Shown: positions 2,758-4,705 of the stretch, one piece after another
Layout: every line of letters begins with the position of its first letter
Position numbering within the stretch: the stretch's first letter is position 1
Assembly (NCBI GenBank): GCA_002782905.1
Contig: PFJA01000285.1
Span: 1-39,342, forward strand
DNA from: Lysobacterales bacterium CG_4_10_14_3_um_filter_64_11
GTDB taxonomy: Bacteria; Pseudomonadota; Gammaproteobacteria; Xanthomonadales; Xanthomonadaceae
DNA: 39,342 nt
Reading direction: 5' to 3'
Notes under the pieces: generated by a model
Databases searched by the model: none
What the model was told of the DNA's origin: nothing
Seen by the model: the letters and a program-made list of their open reading frames with translations, nothing else
Position numbers and translations under genes: made by a program

Positions 2758-2794
2758 CCCCGGATTTAAGCCTGCGGCCGCAACCCGGGGTTAC
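2758..2794 (-). repeat. AACCCGGG palindromic intergenic repeat, copy 1 (divergent)
   Basis: Reverse complement AGTAACCCCGGGTTGCGGCCGCAGGCTTAAATCCGGGG matches the consensus GTAGCCCGGGTT-GGCCGCAGGCC-GAAACCCGGGGC built from the other copies. Confidence 0.7.
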
Positions 2795-3468
2795 TCCATC
2801 CGCGCTTGCCACGATTCGACGCAGCCGCTGTGCAGGCGCGCAGCGAACAAGCGCTGCCACGCTGCCGGCAGCGGCAAGGCCAACACCTCGCGCAGCGCCA
2901 ACGGATCGCACGTGCGGTCACGAATCAATGCCAGCAGACGCGCGATCGTCCATTGCGCGAACGGGCGGTGCTGCACCACGATGGCGTCGCCGGCACGGAT
3001 GTGCCCGGCGGCGATCACCCGCAGGTACCAGCCAGCGCGCAGTGAATCCTGCACCCGCCGTGCCATGTCCGGCACCGCGAAGCGGTCGTTGAGCTTCCAG
3101 CACGGTTGCCGGCCCTGGCTCACTTCCACCATCGTGGTGCCAATCCGGCAGCGATCGCCGATGCAGACGCTGTGCTCGTCGAGACCCTCGACACTGAGGT
3201 TTTCACCGAAAGCACCGGCCTGCGCCAACCGCGCATGGCCGGGCAACTCCTGCAACCAGGTCTGATAATGCGACCACGAATAACAGTGGATCGCCTTGTC
3301 CGGCCCACCGTGTACGCGCGGATCGCCGTGCTGATCGCCTGCCAGACCCTCGCTGTCCACCGCGACCGCACCAGCCACCGCGCTTTTGCCGATGGCACTG
3401 CTGCTGCCGGGCCGGGTGTAAGGCACAGCCGAACCGATCAGCACCTCACGCACACAGGCGATCGCCAT
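2791..3468 (-). CDS. MOSC domain-containing protein (YiiM-like)
   Basis: GLAGDQHGDPRVHGGPDKAIHCYSWSHY...AFGENLSVEGLDE...GRQPCWKLNDRF motif set. Start taken at MAIACVREVLIG. Confidence 0.88.
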   Translation of the reverse strand: MAIACVREVLIGSAVPYTRPGSSSAIGKSAVAGAVAVDSEGLAGDQHGDPRVHGGPDKAIHCYSWSHYQTWLQELPGHARLAQAGAFGENLSVEGLDEHSVCIGDRCRIGTTMVEVSQGRQPCWKLNDRFAVPDMARRVQDSLRAGWYLRVIAAGHIRAGDAIVVQHRPFAQWTIARLLALIRDRTCDPLALREVLALPLPAAWQRLFAARLHSGCVESWQARME

Positions 3469-3569: not shown

Positions 3570-4046
3570 TCAATCGCGCAACGTGCTGAACACATAGCCC
3601 TGCGCCTGCTGCGGCGCGTGGCAGGCAAAGCACGCCGTGGCCGCATTGCTGCCCACCGCGCGCGTGCTCGGGGCGCCGCCAGCAAAGCCTTCAAAGCCCC
3701 AACCACCCGTCGTGGGATACGCCTTGGCATCCTTGTGCATCACCCCTACCACCTTGCGCGCTCCTTCGGTAATCGCATTGTCGGCCGCATGGGCTTCCAG
3801 CAGATCGAACACGATCACCGCACCGTCCGGGAAACTGCCGGAACGATAGCCCTGCACCGCCTTGGCATTGGCATATAGGTGATGGATGCCACCAAACGCC
3901 GCGAACAACGGATGTCCGTCTTCGATCACCATGCTCTTGACGTGATGCCAAGCGCGATAACCTTCAGGATAGGGCACTTCCGGGTCGGCGGCGAGGCTGG
4001 AGTGAGCAAAGCTGATGAGCAACAGCACGGCAAAAAGACGCGTCAT
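3570..4046 (-). CDS. Cytochrome P460 family protein, secreted c-type haem protein
   Basis: Signal peptide MTRLFAVLLLISFAHSSLAA; P460-like core (YRAWHHVKSMVI...GGIHHLYANAKAVQGYRSGSFPDGAVIVFDLLEA); C-terminal CFACH haem-binding motif. Confidence 0.88.
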   Translation of the reverse strand: MTRLFAVLLLISFAHSSLAADPEVPYPEGYRAWHHVKSMVIEDGHPLFAAFGGIHHLYANAKAVQGYRSGSFPDGAVIVFDLLEAHAADNAITEGARKVVGVMHKDAKAYPTTGGWGFEGFAGGAPSTRAVGSNAATACFACHAPQQAQGYVFSTLRD

Positions 4047-4064
4047 GACATTCTCCCGGATTCT

Positions 4065-4087
4065 TTATGCATCGAGTCGATGCATAA
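4065..4087. promoter_or_regulatory. Perfect 23-bp dyad, putative MarR operator at the P460 promoter
   Basis: TTATGCATCGA-G-TCGATGCATAA, perfect inverted repeat with a 1-nt centre, just downstream of a candidate TTGACA-N17-TAGGCT promoter reading toward P460. Confidence 0.8.
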
Positions 4088-4120
4088 CTAGCCTAGGATG
4101 CGTACGCTCGGTTGTCAAGC

Positions 4121-4141
4121 AATGCATCGACACGATACATT
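4121..4141. promoter_or_regulatory. Second related dyad, putative autoregulatory operator before the MarR ORF
   Basis: AATGCATCGA-C-ACGATACATT; 8 of 10 arm positions complementary; shares the ATGCATCGA half-site with 4065-4087; ends 6 nt before the MarR ATG. Confidence 0.65.
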
Positions 4142-4147
4142 GCAGCC

Positions 4148-4705
4148 ATGAACACCGTCCCCCTGCTCATCGAACGTCTGGGTGCCCTGATCCAGCAATC
4201 CGTGCGCGAGGACGCAGCACGCCACGGCCTGCTGCCGATCCACGTACAGATGCTGCAGTATCTGGCGCAAGCCAATCGCTACAGCGATTTGCCGATTGCC
4301 ATCGCCGAGTACCTTGGCATCAGCCGTGGCACGGTATCGCAAAGTCTTGCCGTTCTCGCAAGCCGGGGGTTGCTCACCAAGCAACCCGATGCGCGCCACC
4401 GCAAGCGCCTCCACCTGCGCCTGACCGCCGCTGGCGACGCGGTATTGCAGACCAGCTGGGCCGAACAGGTTGGGCAAGCGCTGCAAGCACTGCCCGGCGA
4501 TGGCCGGGTTCAGCAAGCGGCGTTGCGCAACCTGCTGCGAGCACTGCAACGGGTCAACGGCCAGCGTGCATTTGGTGTTTGCCGGCACTGCGCCCACTTT
4601 TGCCACGATGAAAGCGGTGCGCGCTGCGGCTTGACCCAGGAGCCGTTGGCGCAGGAACAAATCACGCGGATCTGCCGCGAATGGAGCGAACCGGCGGCGG
4701 CATGA
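4148..4705 (+). CDS. MarR family regulator with Cys-rich C-terminal extension
   Basis: MarR wHTH (LPIAIAEYLGISRGTVSQSLAVLASRGLLTKQPDARHRKRLHLRLTAAG), then CRHCAHFCHDESGARCGLTQEPLAQEQITRICREW. Confidence 0.9.
   Translation: MNTVPLLIERLGALIQQSVREDAARHGLLPIHVQMLQYLAQANRYSDLPIAIAEYLGISRGTVSQSLAVLASRGLLTKQPDARHRKRLHLRLTAAGDAVLQTSWAEQVGQALQALPGDGRVQQAALRNLLRALQRVNGQRAFGVCRHCAHFCHDESGARCGLTQEPLAQEQITRICREWSEPAAA

Follow-up and report, generated by a model that had tools for sequence, protein, structure and literature searches.

In outline, NsrR is a nitric oxide (NO) sensor of the Rrf2 family, which carries an iron-sulfur centre held by cysteines and represses NO-defence genes from a palindromic operator in their promoters. 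The switch proposed here was found in a 39,342-nt stretch of bacterial DNA (hereafter the window, meaning the whole stretch that was analysed), in which a MarR-family regulator is encoded next to a cytochrome gene. It would resemble NsrR, in so far as the latter is outlined above, by the repression of NO-defence genes, a cysteine-held iron-sulfur centre and a palindromic operator at the promoter, but the two proteins belong to different DNA-binding families and the window regulator has its four cysteines in an added C-terminal domain. Searches of Pfam and NCBIfam with the window regulator gave MarR-type matches only and no Rrf2-type domain.

Other repressors resemble parts of this switch. ArnR of Corynebacteria is a winged helix-turn-helix (wHTH) protein with a [4Fe-4S] cluster, which represses hmp and nar and whose DNA binding is abolished by NO (PMC12343034). 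Its MarR/ArsR-like wHTH followed by C-terminal cysteines recalls the window regulator, but ArnR has three cysteines (179, 193 and 223) with an x13/x29 spacing (PMC12343034), whereas the window regulator displays C-x2-C-x11-C-x15-C. SufR/Rv1460 is also a wHTH repressor with C-terminal iron-sulfur cysteines, although it has three essential ones (203, 216 and 244) and controls suf genes (PMC6034842); the cysteine spacing of neither ArnR nor SufR is found in the window regulator. Finally, CioR of Chromobacterium violaceum is a MarR-family autorepressor of an NO-resistance oxidase operon, but it has a single cysteine, lacks a Cys4 tail and is not encoded divergently from a c'-type cytochrome (PMC11837568).

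Concerning the cytochrome, CytS, the cytochrome c'-beta of Methylococcus capsulatus (6hih), shares with the window protein the P460 fold, a CxxCH motif, a phenylalanine cap, a hydrophobic distal pocket and a glycine in place of the carboxylate. No regulator of M. capsulatus CytS is described in the CytS literature searched. More generally, cytochrome c'-beta is a presumed NO-handling protein without established physiology, whose control in bacteria appears undescribed. A literature search for MarR proteins associated with P460, c'-beta or hydroxylamine oxidoreductase (HAO), in which subscription journals are thinly covered, returned no prior description of a Cys4-tailed MarR branch, its operator or its regulon. 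While MarR repressors and c'-beta are already known as parts, the Cys4-tailed branch with its operator and regulon is apparently new. Judged from sequence, predicted structure and published data on relatives, the Cys-tailed MarR protein, its putative operators and, often, a c'-beta gene seem to form an apparently undescribed stress-control switch that recurs across distant bacteria and probably deals with reactive nitrogen.

Results

The cytochrome gene (minus strand) and the MarR gene (plus strand) lie back to back, separated by an intergenic gap of 101 bp (4047-4147) (Table 1). An earlier note on this DNA had proposed that the two genes form a divergent module under common control, with two operators in this gap. 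The gap has the coordinates given there, both dyads agree with the sequence base for base, and the minus-strand promoter that the note had placed on the cytochrome side (TTGACA-N17-TAGGCT) has the expected hexamers and 17-bp spacer. Two refinements can be made: the MarR gene starts at ATG 4148, and the gene named P460 belongs, within the P460 fold, to the c'-beta branch.

Table 1. Features of the divergent module in the window (positions from the first letter of the window).
Feature	Position	Strand	Evidence
MOSC-domain (YiiM-like) gene, 101 bp downstream of c'-beta	2791..3468	-	Pfam MOSC 130 bits and YiiM_3-alpha
Cytochrome c'-beta gene (158-aa product with haem motif CFACH and a likely signal peptide)	3570..4046	-	Pfam PF16694 111 bits
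Dyad 1 (distal operator, putative), covers predicted +1 of c'-beta promoter	4065..4087	.	Exact palindrome; conserved
-10 TAGGCT of c'-beta promoter	4090..4095	-	Sequence
-35 TTGTCA of MarR promoter, overlaps opposite -35	4112..4117	+	Inferred from position
-35 TTGACA of c'-beta promoter	4113..4118	-	Sequence; same-genus genomes
Dyad 2 (proximal operator, putative), covers spacer and -10 of MarR promoter	4121..4141	.	Conserved position
-10 TACATT of MarR promoter, six bases before ATG	4136..4141	+	Sequence; relatives
MarR-family regulator with C-terminal Cys4 domain, 185 aa	4148..4705	+	Pfam MarR_2 47 bits
Cys4 tail domain: CxxC, beta-hairpin, short helix	4571..4702	+	Cys invariance, AlphaFold2
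Tail cysteines	C145 (4580), C148 (4589), C160 (4625), C176 (4673)	+	Invariant in 79 sequences

Dyad 1 is an exact palindrome with 11-bp arms (TTATGCATCGA-G-TCGATGCATAA) and the sole odd palindrome with arms of at least 9 bp in the whole 39 kb; in random sequence that matches the window in dinucleotide composition, 0.03 odd palindromes with 11-bp arms are expected. Dyad 2 (AATGCATCGACACGATACATT) is paired at 7/9 arm positions, and its 19-bp core starts 26 bp before the ATG, as in relatives. The window contains three exact copies of ATGCATCGA, all of them inside the 101-bp gap. Besides these two dyads, the 2.9-Mb host genome contains no match closer than 3 mismatches, and none of the candidates for extra operators elsewhere in it was convincing.

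The promoter on the cytochrome side is present as TTGACA-N17-TATGCT in both same-genus genomes. As dyad 1 begins 3 bp past its -10 hexamer in the window, it covers the expected start point of c'-beta transcription. On the other strand, the predicted MarR promoter reads TTGTCA-N18-TACATT, with dyad 2 filling the spacer and the -10, and transcription is expected to begin at the A of the ATG. The heptamer TTGTCAA was found in 39/60 relatives versus 0.9 in shuffled sequences. Since a -10-like hexamer stands exactly 6 bases before the ATG in 20 of the 31 relatives examined and a Shine-Dalgarno-like motif in only 4, the MarR mRNA is probably leaderless. The placement of the dyads on both promoters argues for repression of both genes.

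The putative operators are conserved well beyond the window. Two same-genus genomes have the same gene pair, with dyad 1 kept in both and dyad 2 in one. The other (L003, genome G085) has lost dyad 2 and the first MarR codons through a small in-frame deletion, and the MarR frame continues there from a TTG located in the promoter. At a larger scale, 60 dereplicated relatives were examined: the 9-bp operator core TCGANTCGA (TCGA-N-TCGA) lies upstream of the MarR gene in 35 of them, against a mean of 0.25 and a maximum of 2 in shuffled sequences. Its density is 135-fold higher in the upstream DNA (36 sites in 12 kb) than in the rest of these loci (10 in 449 kb; p = 3e-48). Relative to MarR start codons assigned by rule, distant relatives have a proximal site near -26 and a second, distal one mostly between -69 and -90, with TTGTCAA in between. 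The sites read ATGYATCGA-N-TCGATRCAT in the deep clade of the window protein (31 sequences from Gamma- and Betaproteobacteria, 100% support) and are close to TAGTATCGA-N-TCGATACTA in other clades, with TCGANTCGA as the common core. The random-sequence control and this phylogenetic footprint rule out a chance palindrome. Spacings of 43-64 bp between the two dyads gave no convincing helical phasing.

The earlier note had named absence of the dyads from orthologous MarR-P460 pairs as the observation that would count against its proposal; they are kept, and the persistence of the same architecture in dozens of distant pairs supports joint control of the divergent genes through two operators. One adjacent MarR/c'-beta pair (G258, L066/L051) lacks the dyads, and the residues of its c'-beta are atypical. 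On the whole, two conserved dyads as putative operators in a divergent promoter region that includes the regulator's own promoter are what is expected of a MarR protein, and the operator architecture is well supported.

The N-terminal 140 residues of the regulator form an ordinary MarR fold with its winged helix-turn-helix (PF12802; best Foldseek matches to MepR and other MarR proteins, E about 1e-6). The remaining 45 residues hold the C-x2-C-x11-C-x15-C motif, whose four cysteines are invariant in 79/79 aligned sequences from this and other genomes (about 32-74% identity to the window protein). This alignment contains 12 invariant positions, 7 of them in the tail (Phe142, the four cysteines, Leu162 and Leu167) and 5 elsewhere. 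A cysteine-rich end of the type CRHCAHFC...C...C had been pointed out before and is indeed present; of its five cysteines, however, only four are conserved, C152 being replaced by leucine in same-genus orthologues. The residue after the last cysteine is histidine in most relatives (CREH) and tryptophan in the clade of the window protein (CREW), which leaves the four cysteines as the conserved set of candidate ligands.

An AlphaFold2 monomer model built on the 79 sequences (mean pLDDT 91.5, pTM 0.86) superseded one from 21 sequences with a poor tail (block pLDDT 38-73). It predicts a compact tail (pLDDT 88-92) in the order CxxC, beta-hairpin, Cys, short helix, Cys. No Pfam model matched the tail significantly (YcgJ appeared below threshold), and fold searches of the PDB and of viral structures matched the MarR part only, without a solved relative of the tail. 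Over 349 genomes of the phylum, a profile of the tail alone retrieved exclusively MarR-sized proteins. Neither Pfam nor NCBIfam has a name for the Cys4 tail, a candidate for a new sensor domain.

The cytochrome is named Cytochrome_P460 in Pfam and has the corresponding fold with a CxxCH haem motif, here CFACH. Nevertheless, its best solved relative is M. capsulatus c'-beta (6hih, 7e-54 over the mature length), true P460s coming some 44 orders of magnitude behind (5e-10). Three positions discriminate c'-beta from P460 (PMC11928373, Table 2). With M. capsulatus numbering, the window protein has phenylalanine rather than lysine at the haem cross-link position (Phe61), phenylalanine as a hydrophobic cap (Phe32) and glycine at the distal carboxylate position (Gly82), where active P460s have glutamate or aspartate. 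Nearly all c'-beta relatives collected share these Phe, Gly and Phe-cap residues. As phenylalanine and glycine replace the cross-linking lysine and the catalytic carboxylate of a P460 hydroxylamine oxidase, the window c'-beta should bind NO and should not oxidise hydroxylamine. The earlier note's reading of the protein as a P460 acting on hydroxylamine is rejected on account of these residues.

Among 321 genomes of the class, c'-beta is present in 20, this MarR protein in 19 and both in 15 (p = 2.6e-18). The two genes are adjacent in 13 of the 15 genomes that have both, and a fourteenth case shows both dyads at a contig end, with the MarR gene cut off. A wider scan of 84,980 species genomes yielded 394 relatives of the MarR protein, and neighbourhoods were taken from the best 80. 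A c'-beta gene lies in the flank of 24 of these best 80 loci (21 times on the opposite strand), including loci of Planctomycetota and Nitrospinota. Many genomes with this MarR protein have no c'-beta. Further neighbours among the best 80 are thioredoxin-like proteins (16), redoxins (14), DUF2024 proteins (11), cd1-type cytochromes related to NirN and NirS (5, in Methylomonas and kin) and HAO (2, one with 565 bits to the N. europaea enzyme). None of these genes was found in the flank of 26 of the best 80 loci, whose targets may lie elsewhere. At one betaproteobacterial locus (L089), the MarR, c'-beta and redoxin genes stand together with an HAO-like gene.

The MOSC gene next to c'-beta in the window scored 156 bits against the NCBIfam equivalog for the YiiM 6-hydroxyaminopurine reductase (PRK11536), below its cut-off of 294. 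A MOSC gene directly follows alphaproteobacterial Cys4-MarR genes, which makes the window MOSC gene a plausible third member of the module; in the same-genus genomes, a redoxin gene, not a MOSC gene, is found beside c'-beta. MOSC proteins such as YiiM are described, in outline, as reducing N-hydroxylated compounds. The host also encodes the cd1 nitrite reductase NirS (L179, contig C201:6383-7561; 689 bits to the P. aeruginosa enzyme) and should for this reason make NO. The nitrite reductase NirK is absent from the host genome.

Discussion

We infer that the regulator binds DNA, that it represses rather than activates, and which type of cofactor and signal it uses, along the following lines. 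A MarR dimer would bind dyad 1 and cover the c'-beta start point, while another at dyad 2 would cover the -10 of its own leaderless promoter and cause autorepression; the two predicted promoters share overlapping -35 elements between the dyads. The four tail cysteines would hold a metal or iron-sulfur centre, whose disruption by a reactive-nitrogen signal, most likely NO, would weaken DNA binding. This would derepress c'-beta (as an NO-binding periplasmic cytochrome), the MarR gene itself and perhaps the MOSC gene. Such an autorepressor, which blocks both promoters until a reactive-nitrogen signal acts on the metal or iron-sulfur centre of the Cys4 tail, is the reading that we favour and hold to be somewhat more probable than not. 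A reactive-nitrogen signal gains in likelihood from the HAO, cd1-cytochrome and MOSC neighbours and from NirS in the host. In M. capsulatus, moreover, ammonia induces c'-beta and HAO 28 to 40-fold but not P460 (PMC6427953), and these induction data together with the nitrogen-oxide theme of the neighbours favour release by reactive nitrogen. That a wHTH repressor with C-terminal iron-sulfur cysteines can work by NO release is illustrated by ArnR (PMC12343034).

More tentatively, we consider it possible that the regulator represents a widespread, undescribed MarR branch with a dedicated C-terminal iron-sulfur (Cys4) domain as NO sensor, which would do with a MarR fold what NsrR does with its own. 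Its TCGA-N-TCGA regulon would comprise c'-beta, HAO, a cd1-type cytochrome, a MOSC reductase and thiol-redox proteins in denitrifiers, methanotrophs and nitrite oxidisers. The neighbours tie c'-beta to HAO, cd1-type cytochromes and MOSC reductases in these three groups of organisms, which govern NO and N2O emission. The regulator and its conserved operator offer a direct handle, as the signal of the former would tell the purpose of c'-beta.

A serious but less likely rival keeps the same repressor and operators and takes the four cysteines for a redox switch of the zinc-thiolate type. The zinc would be released, and the repressor inactivated, by oxidants, electrophiles, persulfides or S-nitrosothiols, the regulon would serve thiol-redox defence, and c'-beta would act partly as a peroxidase. 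The thioredoxin-like, redoxin and DUF2024 neighbours of many members without c'-beta suit a thiol or redox signal as well, and it is the thiol-redox neighbours that keep this rival serious. Moreover, the predicted tail fold resembles a small zinc-binding knuckle, as judged by topology only, and the c'-beta of N. europaea has peroxidase-like activity (PMC11928373). Nitrogen oxides, however, account better for HAO, cd1-type cytochromes and MOSC proteins as neighbours and for the NO-binding pocket of c'-beta. A tail zinc of merely structural use in a classical MarR protein, with a small-molecule ligand between the wHTH and the dimerisation helices, agrees with the ordinary MarR fold of the core, but the strict invariance of the tail positions against five in the remaining protein makes it improbable. 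Lastly, a P460 that oxidises hydroxylamine, paired with a regulator that senses this substrate, is hardly credible: the Pfam name and HAO beside two other family members speak for it, but against it stand the phenylalanine and glycine at the cross-link and carboxylate positions, the lack of hydroxylamine oxidation in structurally characterised proteins with the same residues (PMC11928373, Table 2) and the far lower scores of true P460s.

Apart from these readings, several loci deserve mention. In Methylomonas sp. LW13 (L168), c'-beta is encoded 3.2 Mb from the MarR gene and is preceded by TTTCGATTCGAAA / TATAGTTTCGATTCGAAATTATA (about 2000-2030); as TATAGTTTCGATTCGAAATTATA lies in a long hairpin, which could be an operator in trans or a terminator, it is only suggestive. 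The closest c'-beta relatives in the class outside the genus (L033 and L034 in G443 and G273, about 69% identity) are found near a different, distant MarR protein with a similar Cys4 tail, whose ATG is directly preceded by a TTAGGNNNCCTAA-like dyad. At L115, L092, L100 and other loci of Accumulibacter, Thauera and Burkholderiales, a thioredoxin-like GCPVC protein is the divergent partner instead of c'-beta, and the operator is kept. Finally, a periplasmic-looking family without a Pfam model and with the motif AG..P....G...ADVYxYVWPT is encoded near Cys4-MarR genes of Alphaproteobacteria and others (L151, L156, L189, L191, L192, L199 and L200).
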